The position numbers were made by a program, and so were the translations under genes. Shown one piece after another: positions 15,863 to 25,134 of a DNA stretch of 64,000 nucleotides. Within the stretch, counting starts at the first letter, position 1. Each line of letters starts with the position of its first letter. Source of the DNA: Geothrix sp. (GTDB lineage Bacteria; Acidobacteriota; Holophagae; Holophagales; Holophagaceae); the NCBI GenBank assembly GCA_030681515.1, contig JAUXSE010000024.1, positions 1 through 64,000 of the forward strand. Reading direction: 5' to 3'. The notes beneath the pieces are model-generated. The model had not been told where the DNA came from, made no database searches, and saw only the letters and a program-made list of their open reading frames with translations.

Positions 15863-17809
15863 ATGCTGTCCGACCTGCTCCGCTTCGCTGGCCGAATCCT
15901 TTTCCTCACGGAGGATCCGGCACAGATCCTCCGCCAGCTGGCGGGCGAGGATCTGGAGCCGGGGGACACTGGCCCCCTCCGGGACCAGATCAGCACGGAC
16001 GAGATCACGCCGGCCTTCATCTGCTACCACTTCGACGAAAAGCTGGGCGACTTCCCCTACCTGGGCCTGAAGTGTGGCGAAGCCTTCCCCGTGAAGGAAG
16101 GTTCCGTCCGCGCCGGCGGCTTCGTCATCAGCGTGGCCGGAAAGCGCCGGGGCAAGGGCAGCAGCCGGGAGGCCAGTCCCTACGCGGAGATCTGCGCGGG
16201 CATCCGCCTGGTGATCGCCGACAGCTTCGAGCGCATCTACCGCCAGAACGCCCAGAACCTCGGCTTGCTGACCAGCACGGACTTCGGTCTGATCCCGCGC
16301 ATCCGTCGGGGCGAGGCCATTCCCCTGGCCGAGTTCACGGCGGGCCTTGATTCCGTGACGGCCGAGATCGTGCGGCGCGGAGGGCTCTTCCCCTACAACG
16401 CCGCGCGCCTCAAGGGCGAGGTGGTGCCGCCGCTGCCCGCCCACGCGCCCCGACCCATGACCTATGCGGAGAAACTGCTGGCCCGCCACGCGGTGGTGGA
16501 TGCGACAGCGGGGCAGGTGGGCCTTCCCGCGGTGAAGCCCGGCGATGGGCTCTTCGTGCAGGCCCATTGGCGCTTCAGCCACGAGTACGTGACGCCCATG
16601 GCCGCGCGCTTCCTGGAGCAGGCCCTGGGCGCCGAGGCCGTCCTGCGCGATCCCGAGCACATTCTGGCCTTCCGGGATCACCTCACCTTCCTGCACCGCA
16701 GCATGAACGCCGAACACCGCAACCTGGGCCTGCTGACTGTGGCCGAGCGCCTGAAACCCGCCCAGGAGGCCTTCTGCGCGAAGCATGGCATCCGGCTTCA
16801 CGGTGAACTCCCGGACGGTTCCGGCAGCGAAGGCATCTGCCACGCGATCATGGCCGAACGCCACGCCTGCCCAGGTCAGGTGGTGGTGGGCACGGATTCG
16901 CACACGCCCCATGCCGGAGCCCTGGGCTGCCTGGCCTTCGGCGTGGGCACCACGGATATCGCCTGCGCCTGGGTGACGGGGGATGTGCGCGTCACCGTGC
17001 CGCCGACGCTGCGCGTGCGGCTGGAGGGCCGGATGCGGGCCGGCGTTTCCGCCAAGGATCTCGTGCTGCACCTGCTGGCCCAGCCCCTCATCCGCGAGGG
17101 CGGCGCCATCGGCCATGTGATCGAGTACCAGGGCGAGGGCCTGCGGGACCTGGACACCGACGAGCGGGCCACGCTCACGAACATGGCCGCGGAGATCGGC
17201 GGCTTCACGGGGCTCATCGCGCCGGACGGGGAGACCGTCCGGTTCGTGAAGGAGCGGCGCGGCGTGGAGATCCTGCTCGAACCCTGGATGCAGGGCGATG
17301 TGGACGCGGAGTACGCCCACACGCTGGAAGTGGACTGCGGGGCCCTCGGCCCCATGCTGGCCCGTCCCGGCGACCCCGGGAATGGCGTGGCCCTGGCGGA
17401 TCTGGGCGAGGCCGTGCCCATCCACATCGCCTACCTGGGCAGCTGCACCGGGGGCAAGCGCGAGGATCTGCGCCGGGCCTTCGAGGTGGTCCAGCCGGCG
17501 ATGGACGAGGGCCGCCGGATCCCCGATGGCGTGCAGTTCTTCGTGCAGTGCGGCAGCGAAGATGTCCGGCGCCATGCGGCGGAGCAGGGCTGGATCGCGG
17601 CCTTCGAGGCGGTGGGCGCGGTGGTCCTGGGCAGTTCCTGTGGCGCCTGCATCAACGCGGGGCCCGGCGTGTCCACGCGCCCGGACCAGGTGACCATCAG
17701 CGCCATCAACCGCAACTTCCCCGGCCGCAGCGGCCCGGGCCAGGTGTGGCTCGCCAGCCCCGCCACCGTCGCAGCCAGCGCCTTGGCGGGCCGCATCGTG
17801 GGGGCCTGA
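15863..17809 (+). CDS. AcnB-like aconitase-family hydro-lyase without HEAT domain
   Basis: The 648-residue protein has the swivel domain first (about 40-175; QISTDEITPAFICYHFDEK, KGSSREASPYAEI, RQNAQNLGLL) and the iron-sulfur catalytic domain second, with VVGTDSHTPHAGALG and cluster ligands at Cys528 (SCTGG), Cys593 and Cys596 (SSCGAC). This is the AcnB order, but the N-terminal HEAT-like domain of AcnB is missing. It catalyses a dehydration/hydration of a tricarboxylate or isopropylmalate-type acid; the exact substrate (citrate, methylcitrate, homocitrate) cannot be told from sequence alone. The YkuD-Mur ligase gene starts one base after its stop, suggesting one transcript. Confidence 0.8.
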   Translation: MLSDLLRFAGRILFLTEDPAQILRQLAGEDLEPGDTGPLRDQISTDEITPAFICYHFDEKLGDFPYLGLKCGEAFPVKEGSVRAGGFVISVAGKRRGKGSSREASPYAEICAGIRLVIADSFERIYRQNAQNLGLLTSTDFGLIPRIRRGEAIPLAEFTAGLDSVTAEIVRRGGLFPYNAARLKGEVVPPLPAHAPRPMTYAEKLLARHAVVDATAGQVGLPAVKPGDGLFVQAHWRFSHEYVTPMAARFLEQALGAEAVLRDPEHILAFRDHLTFLHRSMNAEHRNLGLLTVAERLKPAQEAFCAKHGIRLHGELPDGSGSEGICHAIMAERHACPGQVVVGTDSHTPHAGALGCLAFGVGTTDIACAWVTGDVRVTVPPTLRVRLEGRMRAGVSAKDLVLHLLAQPLIREGGAIGHVIEYQGEGLRDLDTDERATLTNMAAEIGGFTGLIAPDGETVRFVKERRGVEILLEPWMQGDVDAEYAHTLEVDCGALGPMLARPGDPGNGVALADLGEAVPIHIAYLGSCTGGKREDLRRAFEVVQPAMDEGRRIPDGVQFFVQCGSEDVRRHAAEQGWIAAFEAVGAVVLGSSCGACINAGPGVSTRPDQVTISAINRNFPGRSGPGQVWLASPATVAASALAGRIVGA

Positions 17810-17810
17810 G

Positions 17811-19883
17811 GTGGCTGCCCCTGATCCCGTACTCGCCGCCCGCTACCGAGCCCTCATCCTGGCCAATCTAGCGCGCCAAGGCGCGCCATCTCTGGATCTC
17901 AGATCCAGAGTCCTGGTGGTGGATCCCGCCCGGCAGCGCCTGGGCGTAATGGAGGATGGACGCCTGGCCTTCGAGGCGGTCATCTCCACGGCGAAGAACG
18001 GCCTGGGCTGCGAGGAGGGCTCGTACCGCACGCCCACGGGCTGGCATCGCATCCACGCCCGCATCGGCGCGGGGGCTGAGCCGGGCACGGTCTTCCGCAG
18101 CCGCGTGGCCACGGGCGATGTCTGGCGAGGCGAGGCCCGGGACGAGGACCTGATCCTCACCCGCGTGCTCACCCTGGAGGGCCTGGAGGAGGGCTGGAAC
18201 CGCGGCCCCGGCCATGATTCCCTGGAACGGTTCATCTACCTGCACGGCACCAACCAGGAACACCAGCTCGGGACGCCGGTCTCCCATGGCTGCGTTCGCT
18301 GCGCGAATGCCGATGTGGTGGATCTCTTCGGTCGCGTGGCTGAGGGCGATCCCGTGCTCATCGCCGGTGGGATCGCATGTGCATTGGATAGAGACGCGGA
18401 AGGCGGGCTATGCCTGCCTTCCGCGTGGGGGCCAGGGGGGACGCAGAGGCTGCCCGTTCAGTCTGCTGAACCTGTGCTCATGGACTCGGGGGCAGCCGGG
18501 CGGTCCCCCCTGACTGATCTGGGACGCCTGCACTTCGCCGGCGTGGCGGGCAGCGGCATGAGCGCCCTGGCCCAGTTCGTGGCCATGAAGGGCGGCCGGG
18601 CCAGCGGCAGCGACCGCAGCTTCGACCGGGGGCAGCGGCCGGAGGCGCGGGGCCACCTCCAGGATCTGGGCGTGGCGCTCCATCCCCAGGACGGTTCCGG
18701 CCTCGAAGGCGACTGCGCGGCCCTGGTGGTCTCCACGGCGGTGGAAGCAGACGTTCCGGACGTGGCGGCGGCGCGGCGCCTGGGCGTGCCCGTGCTGCAC
18801 CGCTCCGAGCTGCTGGCGCACCTGGTGGCGAGGTACCGCACCGTGGCGGTGACGGGCACCAGCGGCAAATCCACCACGGTGGCCCTGGTCTTCGAGATCC
18901 TGCGGGGTGCGGGACGGGATCCTTCGGTCATCACCGGGGGCGAGCTGGTGGCGCTGCAAAGAGAGGGCCGCTGGGGCAACGCCTGGGCGGGCGCGTCGGA
19001 TCTGCTGGTCATCGAGGCCGACGAAAGCGATGGCTCCGTGGTGCGCTACCATCCGGCCGTGGGCGTGATCCTGAACCTGCAGCGCGACCACAAGGAGATG
19101 GACGCCGTGGCAGAGATGTTCCGCGCCTTCCGGGCCCAGGTGCGGGAAACCACCGTGGTGGGCGAGGCGGAAAATATGAGGGAATTCGCTGTTGGGGCCA
19201 GTGTCTCCGGATTCGGTAGAGGGGCGGATCTGCGTGCCGAGGAACTTTGCTTGGGCGCGGAAGGCTCCACCTTCCGCGTGAGGGAGACGGTCTTCAGGCT
19301 TCCGGTGCCAGGACGCCACAATGTGGAAAATGCCCTGGCGGCCATCGCGGCCTGCCAGGCCCTGGGGGTGTCCCTGGCGGCCATGGCTGCGCCGCTGGCC
19401 GCCTTCCAGGGCGTGGCCCGGCGCTTCCAGGTGCTGGGCACCCGGGGTGGCGTCACCGTGGTGGATGACTTCGGCCACAATCCGGCCAAGGTGGTGGCGT
19501 CCATCCGGGCCGCCCACCTGCGGGTGGAGGCCACCGGAGGACGCGTCCTGGCGGTCTTCCAGCCCCACGGGTTCGGGCCCCTGAAGTTCCTCCGGGAGGA
19601 TTTCGTGGAAGCCTTCGTGACGGAACTGGCGCCCGGCGACCGGCTCTGGTTCCTCGATGTCTTCTACGCAGGAGGCACAGCGTCCAGGGACATCAGCTCG
19701 GCCGAAGTGGTCGCGGACATTGCCGCCCGAAGCAGGGCCGCGGCGCACGCCCCCTCGCGCGAGTGGCTCGTGGAAAGGCTGATCGCCGAGGCCAAGGCCG
19801 GGGATCTGATTCTGGTGATGGGAGCCCGGGATCCCTCGCTCACAGACCTGGCGAAGGGCATCCTAGCGGCGCTTGCCTCCTGA
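17811..19883 (+). CDS. Fusion of cytoplasmic YkuD L,D-carboxy/transpeptidase domain with MurC/Mpl-type Mur ligase
   Basis: The 690-residue product joins two cell-wall enzymes. Residues about 30-190 are a YkuD domain with the catalytic HGT...SHGCVRC pattern (His145, nucleophile Cys161). Residues about 238-690 are a Mur ligase: GVAGSGMSALAQF dinucleotide-like start, P-loop GTSGKSTT at 349-356, VIEADESDGS, and a C-terminal domain with DDFGHNPAK as in MurC/Mpl. There is no signal peptide, so both act in the cytoplasm. By analogy with cytoplasmic YkuD L,D-carboxypeptidases used in muropeptide recycling, the first half could trim tetrapeptide to tripeptide and the second, if Mpl-like, ligate it to UDP-MurNAc. 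The start is GTG. The linker (about 190-237) contains a hairpin, and a second hairpin with the same arm lies inside the ligase. Confidence 0.8.
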   Translation: MAAPDPVLAARYRALILANLARQGAPSLDLRSRVLVVDPARQRLGVMEDGRLAFEAVISTAKNGLGCEEGSYRTPTGWHRIHARIGAGAEPGTVFRSRVATGDVWRGEARDEDLILTRVLTLEGLEEGWNRGPGHDSLERFIYLHGTNQEHQLGTPVSHGCVRCANADVVDLFGRVAEGDPVLIAGGIACALDRDAEGGLCLPSAWGPGGTQRLPVQSAEPVLMDSGAAGRSPLTDLGRLHFAGVAGSGMSALAQFVAMKGGRASGSDRSFDRGQRPEARGHLQDLGVALHPQDGSGLEGDCAALVVSTAVEADVPDVAAARRLGVPVLHRSELLAHLVARYRTVAVTGTSGKSTTVALVFEILRGAGRDPSVITGGELVALQREGRWGNAWAGASDLLVIEADESDGSVVRYHPAVGVILNLQRDHKEMDAVAEMFRAFRAQVRETTVVGEAENMREFAVGASVSGFGRGADLRAEELCLGAEGSTFRVRETVFRLPVPGRHNVENALAAIAACQALGVSLAAMAAPLAAFQGVARRFQVLGTRGGVTVVDDFGHNPAKVVASIRAAHLRVEATGGRVLAVFQPHGFGPLKFLREDFVEAFVTELAPGDRLWFLDVFYAGGTASRDISSAEVVADIAARSRAAAHAPSREWLVERLIAEAKAGDLILVMGARDPSLTDLAKGILAALAS
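18394..18426 (+). repeat. Inverted repeat in the inter-domain linker of the YkuD-Mur gene
   Basis: ACGCGGAAGGC and GCCTTCCGCGT flank an 11-base loop, a perfect 11-bp stem inside the coding sequence of the linker. The same CGCGGAAGG arm forms another hairpin at 19256-19278 in this gene. Confidence 0.75.
19256..19278 (+). repeat. Second hairpin sharing the CGCGGAAGG arm
   Basis: CGCGGAAGG and CCTTCCGCG flank a CTCCA loop within the Mur ligase part. The shared arm with the linker hairpin suggests a small repeated palindromic unit placed in coding DNA. Confidence 0.65.
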
Positions 19884-20947: not shown

Positions 20948-23179
20948 TCAGTCGAGGTTCAGCCGAAGGACACCCCAGGCAGAGGCGGTATAGAGGGCCC
21001 CACCGTGGAGGGCGATGCCCGAGCCGGTGAAGTTCAGGGTGTCGGGTGTATTGAAGACCGGAACCCGACAGGCCACGCCGCTGGATGAAATCTGCAAGGG
21101 GCCCCACCCACCGATGTCCTGGACGAGGATGCTGCCGTTGCGGTCCACTGCGATGCCGGACGGCGCGTAGAGGAGCTTGCCCACATCCGCCACGCTGGCG
21201 CTGCCCGCGCTGCCCAGGGTGAAACGGAGGGTGGTCACCACCCCCTCGGGGGTGACTCGGCGAATGGCGGCATTGCTGCAATCCGCCACGAAGAGGATGC
21301 CTGAAGGATCCACGGCGATGCCGTAGGGACGGTCGAATCTGGCCGAGGCGCCGGCGCCGTCCGTCAACCCGGCCTGCCCGGCTGTTCCGGCGAGGGTGGT
21401 GACCAGGCCATCGGGACCCATGCGTCGAATGGCGTTGCCATCGGTCACATAGAGGTTGCCATGGGCATCGGCGGTGATTCCCGTGGGCGCGGTGAACCGG
21501 GCCTGGGAGCCCAGGCCGTCCTGAGTTCCCGTCAGGCCGGCCGTTCCGGCCACCGTCGTGACCTGCCCGGCGGGAGTGATCTTCCGCAGGGTCGCGTTCA
21601 GGGCATCCGTGACGAAGACATTGCCGGACCCGTCGACAGCCGTGCTCACGACTGCGCCGAACAGGGCCTGGGAGGCCGGCCCGTCGAGGGCTCCGCTTTG
21701 GTTGGGGACTCCGGCGTAGGTACTGACGGTGCCCGCCGGGGTGATTTTCAGGATCGTGTTGTTGCTGGAGGGCACAAAGGCATTGCCTGCGGCGTCCATG
21801 CCGAAGTTCACGGGGCCGAAGAGGGCGGGCCTCCGCTGGCCGACCAGGGTGGTCACCTCACCATCCGGCTTGATGGAACGGATCGCGCTGTTCTGGTAGT
21901 CGGCGACCAGCACTTGCCCAGCGGCATCCACGGTCAATCCGGAGATGGTGCTGAACCTGGCTGTGCTCCCAGGACCGTCTATCCAGCCCAATTTCCCTTC
22001 CGCACCGGCGAAGATCGAGACCGTGCCCGCCGGGGTGATCCTGGCGATGGCATTCTCCCCGCCCACGAACAGGCTGCCGTCGGGACCGATCGCCAGGGCG
22101 TTGGGCCTCCAGAGGGGCAGGGTGGTCGGCCATGGTGCGCGGGTGGTGACGAGCCCTCCAGGGGTGATCGACCGGATGGCCCAGTTGCCGCTGTCCACCA
22201 CCAGGAGGGTGCCGGAGGCATCGACCACGAGCCCGCTCGGTCGGAGGAACCGGGCTGAACCCCCGGTCCCATCGATGCGTCCCGTCACCCCGGGAGATCC
22301 GGCGAGGGTGCTCACCTGCCCCTGGGGAGTGACCAGCCGGATGGTGTGGTTCCCGGTGTCCGCCACATAGACATTCTCCGCGGCATCCACAGCCAAGCCC
22401 TTGGGGTAGTTGAACAGGGCTGAAGTCCCCATGCCATCTGCGCTTCCCACCTGGTCGGGAACACCTGCGAGGGTGGCCAGCGTGCCCCCGGGTTTGAACC
22501 GGCACAGCGAGGATCCGACGAAGAAGTAGACATTCCCGGAGGGACCCATGGTCATGTACGAGGGTCCTCCCTGGGGCAGGGACGGGAGCGGCGTTGACAC
22601 CAGGCCCTGGGGCGAGAGCATGCGGATGGCCCGGTTTCCGTAGTCTGCGATGAGCAGGTTGCCGGAGGGGTCTGACACTACGGCCGAAGTGTAGTTGAAC
22701 CTGGCGAAGGCCACGGGCCCATCGACGACGGGTGAGTTGGGGAAACTCGCCAGCAGGCTGGTCGAACCGGCGGTCGCCGGGAAGAGCGTCAGTGTGCAGG
22801 TGGCGCTGACGCTCCCTCCAGCATTGCTGGCCGTCAGGGTGTAGGTGGTGGTCCGGCTTGGATGAACCCAGCAGGTGGAACCGGTGACGGTTCCGATCCC
22901 ATTGTCGAGGGTCAGGCTGGTCGCCCCGGTGACGTACCAGACCAGTTGGGCGGAGGATGAGCTGCCGAGAAGGTAGGCGGGCGCACTGAAGCTGCGGATG
23001 GTCGGGGCCGGAGTTGGGGTGGGAGCGGGGGCCTGGGTTCCACCGCTCCGGCCCCCGCAGGCCAGCCCCGCGGCCAGCAGAAGGCCTGTCGCGATCAGGG
23101 CAAGGGGCTTCCGGAACAGCCGATGGCGGGGCTTTTCAGCCTGGATGGCCCAGCATGGGGGGACGGTCACCATGGACAT
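20948..23179 (-). CDS. NHL-repeat lipoprotein with Ig-like domain
   Basis: The 743-residue product has a signal peptide with lipobox (LLAAGLAC, cysteine near 41), a Thr/Pro-rich spacer (APTPTPAPT), an Ig-like domain (about 62-130) and then about ten NHL-type beta-propeller repeats of the form VDPSGxLxVADxxNxAIRxxTPxGxVTTLAG. The repeats should fold as one or two propellers on the cell surface or in the periplasm. Such proteins are abundant in Acidobacteria, with no known substrate. It stands alone and is convergent with mazG. Confidence 0.85.
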   Translation of the reverse strand: MSMVTVPPCWAIQAEKPRHRLFRKPLALIATGLLLAAGLACGGRSGGTQAPAPTPTPAPTIRSFSAPAYLLGSSSSAQLVWYVTGATSLTLDNGIGTVTGSTCWVHPSRTTTYTLTASNAGGSVSATCTLTLFPATAGSTSLLASFPNSPVVDGPVAFARFNYTSAVVSDPSGNLLIADYGNRAIRMLSPQGLVSTPLPSLPQGGPSYMTMGPSGNVYFFVGSSLCRFKPGGTLATLAGVPDQVGSADGMGTSALFNYPKGLAVDAAENVYVADTGNHTIRLVTPQGQVSTLAGSPGVTGRIDGTGGSARFLRPSGLVVDASGTLLVVDSGNWAIRSITPGGLVTTRAPWPTTLPLWRPNALAIGPDGSLFVGGENAIARITPAGTVSIFAGAEGKLGWIDGPGSTARFSTISGLTVDAAGQVLVADYQNSAIRSIKPDGEVTTLVGQRRPALFGPVNFGMDAAGNAFVPSSNNTILKITPAGTVSTYAGVPNQSGALDGPASQALFGAVVSTAVDGSGNVFVTDALNATLRKITPAGQVTTVAGTAGLTGTQDGLGSQARFTAPTGITADAHGNLYVTDGNAIRRMGPDGLVTTLAGTAGQAGLTDGAGASARFDRPYGIAVDPSGILFVADCSNAAIRRVTPEGVVTTLRFTLGSAGSASVADVGKLLYAPSGIAVDRNGSILVQDIGGWGPLQISSSGVACRVPVFNTPDTLNFTGSGIALHGGALYTASAWGVLRLNLD

Positions 23180-23766: not shown

Positions 23767-25134
23767 ATGAGCCGCCCTCCCTTCCATCTCGTGACCCTGA
23801 CCCACTCCGAGTGGGAGGAGGCCCTGGCCTGCGCCCAACGCCTGGGAGACGACGCCCTGCCCGAGCTGCGCCTGGACCTGTTTCCCGAGGCGGATCCCGA
23901 GGCCCTGGTGGACGCCCTGAGGCGCCGCTGCCTGGTGGCCTGCCGCCGGGTCTCGGAGGGCGGACGCTGGCCGGATGAGGACGAGGCGGGGCGCATCGCC
24001 CACCTCATCCGTGCGATCCCGGGCCGGCCCGCCTGGATGGATCTGGAATGGGAATTGTCCATTCCGCCGGCCATCCAGGCGGCCCGCACCCATGTGCGGC
24101 TGCTGCGCTCCGTCCATGTGGCGCCCGGGGTCTTCGATCTGGAGGCGCGCCTGCGCACCCTGCCTGAGGGCGATGCCTACAAGTGGGTGGGGTGGGCTGG
24201 ACGCCTGGGCGATAACGGCCGCCTCCGCGCTCCGCTGGCCTGGGCCGTGGACCATGGCATCGCCCTGTCGGCCTTCCTGATGGGGTCCAAGGGGCTGCCC
24301 AGCCGGGCCCTCCAGGCGGCCTGGGGCGGGAGCTTCACCTTCGCCGCGCCGGACGATGGGCCGCCCGCCGCGCCGGGGCAGCTGCCGCTCTCGACCCTGC
24401 GCGCCTGGCGGAGCGCGAAGCTCCACCCGGGCTACGGCCTGTGCGGCGTCATCGGGGATCCCGTGCTGCATTCCCGGGGCCCGGCCTTCCACAATCCCCG
24501 CTTCCAGCGGGCCTTCAAGGACCTGATCTACCTGCCCCTCCTCTGCGATGAGGCCAGCGAGGCCGCGGAAGCCCTGGAATCGCTTGGCATCCTCGGGTTG
24601 AGCCTCACGGCGCCGCTGAAGCTCTCGCTCCCAGAGGCGCTCGGATTGAAGGGCCCCTTGAATACCCTCTGGCGGCGGTCGCCGGCGGATCCCTGGCGGG
24701 GCGCGAACACGGATGCCGAGGCTCTTGGACAATCATTGTCGCATCTTGAGCCCGGTCCCGTGCTGTTGCTGGGAGAGGGCGGGGTGGCACGGACCAGCCA
24801 TGCGGTGCTGACTGCCGCGGGGCGGACGGTGCTCCAGGCCTCCCGCCGGTCCCCCGTGACCGCAGCGTCCGTGGCCGCCTTCGGGCCGGTGGGCCTCGTC
24901 CAGGCCACCAGCCTGGGCATGGCGGCGGACGATCCGGCGCCCTTCCCCGGACTGCTGGAGGCGGCCCGGCCCAGCGCCCGCTGGGCCGTGGAATGGATCT
25001 ACAAGGAGGACACCGCCTTCGCGCTCTGGGCCCGGGCAGTGGGCCTCGCCCTGGTGGAGGGAGGCACCCTCTTCGAGGCCCAGGCCGAAGCGCAGAGCCG
25101 GCGGTTCATCGAGGGGTGCGGGGGAGGCAGCTGA
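23767..25134 (+). CDS. aroDE: Bifunctional 3-dehydroquinate dehydratase (type I) / shikimate dehydrogenase
   Basis: The 455-residue fusion has an AroD domain (about 1-205) and an AroE domain (about 220-455), catalysing two consecutive shikimate steps. AroD features are ELRLDLF, the catalytic His117 (SVHVAPG), the Schiff-base Lys139 (YKWVGWA) and LMGSKGLPSR. AroE features are GVIGDPVLHSRGPAFHN, Lys285 (SLTAPLK) and Asp316 (GANTDAEAL), then a degenerate NADP-binding GEGGVARTSH in place of GAGGA. The same fusion order occurs in plants and Chlamydiae. A heptamer array begins at its stop codon. Confidence 0.9.
   Translation: MSRPPFHLVTLTHSEWEEALACAQRLGDDALPELRLDLFPEADPEALVDALRRRCLVACRRVSEGGRWPDEDEAGRIAHLIRAIPGRPAWMDLEWELSIPPAIQAARTHVRLLRSVHVAPGVFDLEARLRTLPEGDAYKWVGWAGRLGDNGRLRAPLAWAVDHGIALSAFLMGSKGLPSRALQAAWGGSFTFAAPDDGPPAAPGQLPLSTLRAWRSAKLHPGYGLCGVIGDPVLHSRGPAFHNPRFQRAFKDLIYLPLLCDEASEAAEALESLGILGLSLTAPLKLSLPEALGLKGPLNTLWRRSPADPWRGANTDAEALGQSLSHLEPGPVLLLGEGGVARTSHAVLTAAGRTVLQASRRSPVTAASVAAFGPVGLVQATSLGMAADDPAPFPGLLEAARPSARWAVEWIYKEDTAFALWARAVGLALVEGGTLFEAQAEAQSRRFIEGCGGGS

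Follow-up and report, generated by a model that had tools for sequence, protein, structure and literature searches.

A fused YkuD-Mur ligase gene of Geothrix probably encodes a bifunctional cytoplasmic enzyme of cell-wall peptide recycling

The 64,000-nucleotide stretch of DNA analyzed here, referred to as the window, originates from the 3.2 Mb genome (99% completeness) of a soil bacterium, whose closest named relatives belong to the genus Geothrix (Holophagaceae, Acidobacteriota). It harbors one reading frame of 690 amino acids, in which a YkuD domain is joined to a complete Mur ligase (Table 1). The GTG start of this gene is located 1 base past the stop of an aconitase gene (15863-17809, plus strand, 648 amino acids), which shows an unusual order of its Pfam domains with Aconitase_C (89-137) preceding Aconitase (235-513). 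In the fused protein, the YkuD domain (74.9 bits) as well as Mur_ligase (240-343), Mur_ligase_M (347-515) and Mur_ligase_C (537-673) were all found above their Pfam cut-offs. The preliminary description of the locus had proposed a fusion in one polypeptide with intact His145/Cys161 and P-loop motifs but without signal peptide, and each of these points was confirmed: the two YkuD residues do not vary in 35 fused proteins, the P-loop GTSGKST is conserved, and a hydrophobic N-terminal segment was found in 0 of these 35, such that the lack of an export signal, which was required for a likeness to the carboxypeptidase ElsL, is fulfilled.

Table 1. Positions of the fused gene and of its parts within the window.
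Feature	Position	Strand	Remark
Fused YkuD-Mur ligase gene, 690 aa	17811..19883	+	Kept across the genus
YkuD domain, residues 33-184	17907..18362	+	Pfam PF03734; ElsL-like, predicted cytoplasmic L,D-carboxypeptidase
His145 of the HGTN motif, predicted catalytic	18243..18245	+	Invariant in 35 fused proteins
Cys161 of the SHGCVR motif, predicted nucleophile	18291..18293	+	Invariant in 35 fused proteins
Linker, residues 190-229	18378..18497	+	Low model confidence; exceeds that of most relatives by about 40 residues
Mur ligase domains N, middle and C, residues 240-673	18528..19829	+	Pfam PF01225, PF08245, PF02875
P-loop GTSGKST	18855..18875	+	GTHGKT in MurC and Mpl
Motif DDFGHNPAK	19464..19490	+	Family-specific F554, N557, K560; Tyr, His, Glu in MurC
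Motif FQPHGFGP	19557..19580	+	G587, P590 at the positions of MurC Arg377, Arg380
Motif GARDPSL	19821..19841	+	Family-specific

An internal start with separate expression of the two halves would have refuted the proposal. The distance from Cys161 to the ligase amounts to 37 residues in most relatives and to 79 in the window protein, hence the linker is largely an insertion. A conserved start is missing from the linker, and in 42 of 60 fused genes the region between the domains contains no start codon that is in frame and has a Shine-Dalgarno-like motif. The AlphaFold2 model, which was calculated with the 35 fused homologue sequences as input, reached a pLDDT of 89 and a pTM of 0.88 and is uncertain only in the linker. 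The spacing, the lack of a conserved internal start and the confident model argue for a single polypeptide, and the possibility of two separately expressed genes was rejected.

The YkuD half meets the requirements for membership in the YkuD superfamily regarding fold (Z 15.7, rmsd 2.5 over 116 residues in comparison to B. subtilis YkuD, 1y7m), Pfam score and catalytic Cys/His. Its best NCBIfam match is ElsL (NF040925), albeit with 124.9 bits below the cut-off of 270; the same profile was the best match of all fused or adjacent YkuD proteins tested (113-142 bits). ElsL from Acinetobacter is a cytoplasmic YkuD protein with L,D-carboxypeptidase activity (PMC8649774). The two proteins have the YkuD domain, the Cys/His motif and the absence of a signal peptide in common, whereas fusion or operon linkage to a Mur ligase is not mentioned for ElsL in the passages of that paper considered. 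The YkuD half is probably a cytoplasmic L,D-carboxypeptidase as well, an activity that is inferred and for which the exchange of YkuD against a non-homologous enzyme described below provides the best evidence. Exported YkuD proteins of the same type occur in a sister family (L034 and L035, with clear signal peptides), next to signal-free forms (L036, L043) in a related genus, a gain or loss of export inside a single lineage of YkuD proteins.

The ligase half likewise fulfils the requirements for the Mur ligase superfamily, i.e. three Mur domains, the P-loop Lys and the Mg-binding Glu and His. MurC is closest to it by profile and fold. However, the window protein scored only 296.5 bits with the MurC profile TIGR01082 (cut-off 335.1), and with 121 bits it remained far below the cut-off of the Mpl profile TIGR01081 (388.7). 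A distant relative from a draft of the delta group (G441/L183), which has the family signature, reached 347.9 bits with TIGR01082, above the cut-off. The predicted ligase fold superimposes on MurC (1p3d) with a Z score of 47.4 and an rmsd of 1.9 over 437 residues, and on Mpl (3hn7) with 32.1 and 4.6 over 426 residues. The Mpl motifs (S/T)AFFDKRSK and EPRSNT (PMC3060825) are absent; instead, the window ligase has EADESDGSVVRY and FQPHGFGP, and its relatives share DDF(G/A)HNPxK, (F/Y)QPHG(F/Y)(G/A)P and GARDPSL. In the tree that had been proposed as a check and was calculated carefully here, MurC (support 100/99) and Mpl (100/98) each form a clade excluding the ligase family, which is supported with 82/99 and, in a larger quick tree, with 100. 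The quick tree groups the family with MurC (87), but grouping with Mpl is not rejected in the AU test (p 0.31), hence the branching order of the three remains unsettled. As judged from profiles, motifs and trees, the ligase half belongs neither to MurC nor to Mpl but to a third clade close to both, and an assignment as Mpl was ruled out.

The amino-acid site of this clade was analyzed by comparing 60 family members with 21 MurC and 8 Mpl proteins, using the motif-based numbering from PMC3060825, and the ligase residues were additionally aligned to solved MurC. The residues of MurC that are believed to hold L-Ala are Tyr346, His348, His376, Arg377 and Arg380 (PMC3060825). Three of these five are replaced, by Phe, Gly and Pro, respectively, in nearly all 60 members, with further fixed changes from His349 to Asn and from the next Glu to Lys, and the P-loop His of MurC and Mpl is Ser. 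The Phe at Tyr346 is found in Mpl, too. The P-loop Lys, E402, H427 and the equivalents of His348 and His376 are retained. Since residues of the L-Ala site were replaced while catalytic residues were kept, the ligase looks active but directed to a substrate other than L-Ala; both activity and substrate are inferences. Regarding the earlier assumption of a recycling-type ligase, the loss of the L-Ala-site residues is in its favor, but the enzyme belongs to a clade of its own and not to the Mpl family, with which it shares the Mur ligase fold, an L,D-carboxypeptidase partner and the proposed role.

The gene complement of the same genomes is of importance for this assignment. A placement as MurC in the absence of a separate murC would have refuted the preliminary description, but a canonical murC (motifs DDYGHHP and FQPHRYSRT) is present on another contig of the own genome; hence, the ligase half is a paralogue and was rejected as the sole MurC. 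Outside Holophagaceae, 19 of 24 ligase-bearing genomes have a MurC above the TIGR01082 cut-off, whereas an Mpl above the TIGR01081 cut-off was found in none of these 24 and in none of the 37 genomes of the window's genus. In the sister family f2, genes of Mpl type with a TAFFDK motif and an ElsL-like YkuD gene occur separately. No cytoplasmic LdcA was found in the own genome. Its S66 protein, like all other Geothrix S66 proteins examined, has a Tat-type signal at its start and is therefore regarded as exported, which excludes it as cytoplasmic LdcA. Such exported LdcA relatives with a Tat-type signal occur in about one quarter of the genus (e.g. L081, 2170-3396). The suggestion that the fusion replaces ldcA and mpl is supported insofar as neither mpl nor a cytoplasmic LdcA is present, but it has to be modified because the ligase is not Mpl itself. 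The genome also encodes AmpG (430 bits, cut-off 350) and a GH3 protein of 339 amino acids, the size of NagZ. A co-loss of AmpG and the fusion inside Holophagaceae was not found; AmpG is retained in the genomes without the fusion.

Within the genus, the ligase with YkuD is present in 34 of 36 other genomes, nearly always in a single frame; a frameshift splits the fusion in one of them (G011), and the two genomes without it are drafts of 71-80% completeness. Most of the Holophagaceae genera sampled have the fusion, which is absent from reduced genomes of 1.2 Mb and a few drafts, and no fusion was seen outside this family among 396 Acidobacteriota genomes. In several other Holophagaceae (L074, L075, L101, L109, L116), a gene for a MurD-type ligase is located directly upstream of the fusion, which is thereby placed among mur genes. 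The C-terminal ligase part, used as query against 84,980 species genomes, revealed at least 549 relatives, 80 of which were kept; the distribution described in the following rests on these 80 loci and on draft genomes. Besides Holophagaceae, the single-frame fusion was found in Methyloceanibacter and other Hyphomicrobiaceae, Syntrophorhabdus, Syntrophaceae, Nitrospirota and one Eisenbacterium. A separate YkuD gene directly upstream of the ligase, abutting or overlapping it, occurs in another Eisenbacterium, Krumholzibacteriia, Latescibacterota and two more cases. No linked YkuD was seen in Elusimicrobia, Bacteroidota, Planctomycetota, a Verrucomicrobium, some Fibrobacter and some proteobacterial loci. 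Because the fusion is kept in the genus, in most sampled genera of the family and in other phyla, it is neither a chance event nor an assembly artefact. Searching for the fused architecture, as had been recommended, hence verified the fusion noted at one locus, but it turned out to be one form of a two-gene module in several phyla. In the ligase tree, the fused members appear in two places, and linked versus unlinked YkuD corresponds to three changes. In the YkuD tree, the larger fused clade has most YkuD proteins of adjacent pairs at its base, as would be expected for a fusion that arose from a gene pair.

Further evidence comes from the genes that accompany the ligase in the absence of a linked YkuD. 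In 24 genomes outside Holophagaceae, S66-type LdcA was found in 0 of 13 with a fused or adjacent YkuD versus 6 of 11 with the ligase alone (Fisher p 0.0034), although this contrast was drawn post hoc and ignores kinship. In a Verrucomicrobium (L160), the gene next to the ligase on its downstream side encodes a signal-free LdcA. The same holds for the genome of Holophagaceae UBA1801 (L128), in which the ligase has no YkuD, on a contig with N gaps. LdcA (Peptidase S66) has a fold unrelated to YkuD, but it would perform the reaction proposed for the YkuD half. Since these unrelated enzymes take the same place, an L,D-carboxypeptidase appears to be needed beside the ligase, which would use its product. 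No other evidence speaks as strongly as this exchange for an L,D-carboxypeptidase in the YkuD half and for reuse of the trimmed peptide by the ligase, activity and substrate being inferred. Neither LdcA nor a linked YkuD was found in some ligase-only genomes (Elusimicrobia, Fibrobacter, one delta). At four Elusimicrobium-type loci the ligase is situated behind asd and dapB, and also behind dapA in the three whose contig extends there, a location that points to diaminopimelate. The ligase copies at these loci (L149, L158, L161, L163) are divergent and have a QPHAF motif. No other MurC was found in one Elusimicrobium draft (G440), hence a part of the family might act as MurC there. Beyond YkuD, LdcA and these dap genes, no neighbors recurred across phyla.

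Collectively, our data support the notion of a bifunctional cytoplasmic recycling enzyme, in which YkuD trims and the ligase reuses the peptide; we assign a probability of about 70% to this reading, whereby both reactions, the exact substrates, the sequence of the steps and a possible channelling rest on inference. Turnover fragments would enter the cell via AmpG, the YkuD half would remove D-Ala4 from tetrapeptides, and the ligase half would probably rejoin the trimmed peptide to a new wall precursor, as Mpl would do. ElsL of Acinetobacter and LdcA of E. coli trim tetrapeptides, Mpl ligates the tripeptide, and an untrimmed tetrapeptide ends in dead-end precursors (PMC8649774, PMC13046382); the fusion would ensure that the tetrapeptide is trimmed before or during reuse. 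This reading, which the preliminary description had favored as an ElsL-like carboxypeptidase combined with a recycling ligase, is supported by the single frame, the intact catalytic residues of both halves and the missing export signal. Moreover, it is supported by the distinct ligase with its altered L-Ala site, the co-occurring murC, the absent canonical mpl, the YkuD/LdcA exchange, and the presence of AmpG and GH3. The precedent of ElsL, the separate Mpl-type and ElsL-like YkuD genes of sister family f2 and the dap genes ahead of the Elusimicrobium ligase count in its favor, too. It is weakened by the score of the YkuD half below the ElsL cut-off and the lack of biochemistry, by ligase-only genomes without LdcA or linked YkuD and the missing co-loss of AmpG, by the two exported YkuD proteins of the sister family and the limits of the LdcA contrast, and by the Elusimicrobium draft without other MurC.

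The alternative mentioned at the outset, a MurC-like enzyme with a tethered transpeptidase, is disfavored by the separate murC, the replaced L-Ala-site residues and LdcA in the place of YkuD. Its two components can also be considered on their own. The ligase half might be a second MurC attaching L-Ala, Gly or L-Ser to UDP-MurNAc, with YkuD editing or hydrolyzing precursors as a check on biosynthesis. The nearest profile and fold, the Elusimicrobium draft and the MurD-type gene preceding some Holophagaceae fusions would be compatible with such a role; however, we regard it as unlikely, given a canonical murC in most genomes checked, the replacement of Tyr346, Arg377 and Arg380, the separate clade and the fact that it is accompanied by L,D-carboxypeptidases whose two folds are unrelated. 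There is only a slim chance that the YkuD half is instead an L,D-transpeptidase, which replaces D-Ala4 in precursors of the cytoplasm by a different D-amino acid or an amine, the modified peptide then being used by the ligase. The YkuD fold is mostly found in transpeptidases, and YkuD enzymes are capable of exchange reactions, but the protein is cytoplasmic, its best sequence match is a carboxypeptidase, and the hydrolytic LdcA takes its place. Finally, the acceptor might differ from UDP-MurNAc, or the peptide from the DAP tripeptide, for example a dipeptide or tetrapeptide. The residues of the peptide site agree with those of neither MurC nor Mpl, hence known enzymes give no guide to the specificity; nevertheless, such a deviation appears very improbable, because the UDP-MurNAc-binding N domain is conserved as in MurC and the Elusimicrobium ligase lies in a dap operon, which suggests DAP.

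If the trimming and reuse of peptides by this protein is accepted, it has consequences for the general view on cell-wall recycling. Cytoplasmic YkuD carboxypeptidases and peptide ligases are, taken separately, already known kinds of enzymes, but a description of their fusion or of the ligase clade was not found in the open-access papers searched, which do not cover the whole literature. Mur ligases have been found in one polypeptide with another wall enzyme in MurB-MurC of Verrucomicrobium spinosum (PMC4803751) and in MurC-Ddl (profile NF011171); unlike the YkuD-Mur ligase, these join biosynthetic steps and use true MurC. LdcA and Mpl are both absent from many species, and recent work on Caulobacter and Agrobacterium concluded that bacteria without them probably break recycled peptides down into amino acids instead of reusing them (PMC13046382, PMC9790009, PMC11980594). 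The fused or adjacent pair in distant phyla lacking both textbook enzymes may represent an unrecognised recycling route. We consider it rather probable that a third UDP-MurNAc peptide ligase, parallel to Mpl, exists in about 10 phyla with a fused YkuD, an adjacent YkuD or LdcA, and that many bacteria considered incapable of direct wall-peptide reuse do in fact practice it. If so, homology searches for LdcA and Mpl would have overlooked a replacement pair, the conclusion of no reuse would change for whole groups, and trimming physically tied to ligation would explain how reuse of the tetrapeptide is avoided. The pair represents a specific gene by which direct peptide reuse becomes testable in new groups, and specificity could be studied in this family on a Mur ligase whose amino-acid site is new.

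Furthermore, two other genes of the window were noted. A secreted-looking NHL repeat (beta-propeller) protein of 743 amino acids with many family matches is encoded at 20948-23179 on the minus strand. The gene at 23767-25134 on the plus strand combines a type I dehydroquinase with a shikimate dehydrogenase N domain, i.e. AroD and AroE in one frame.
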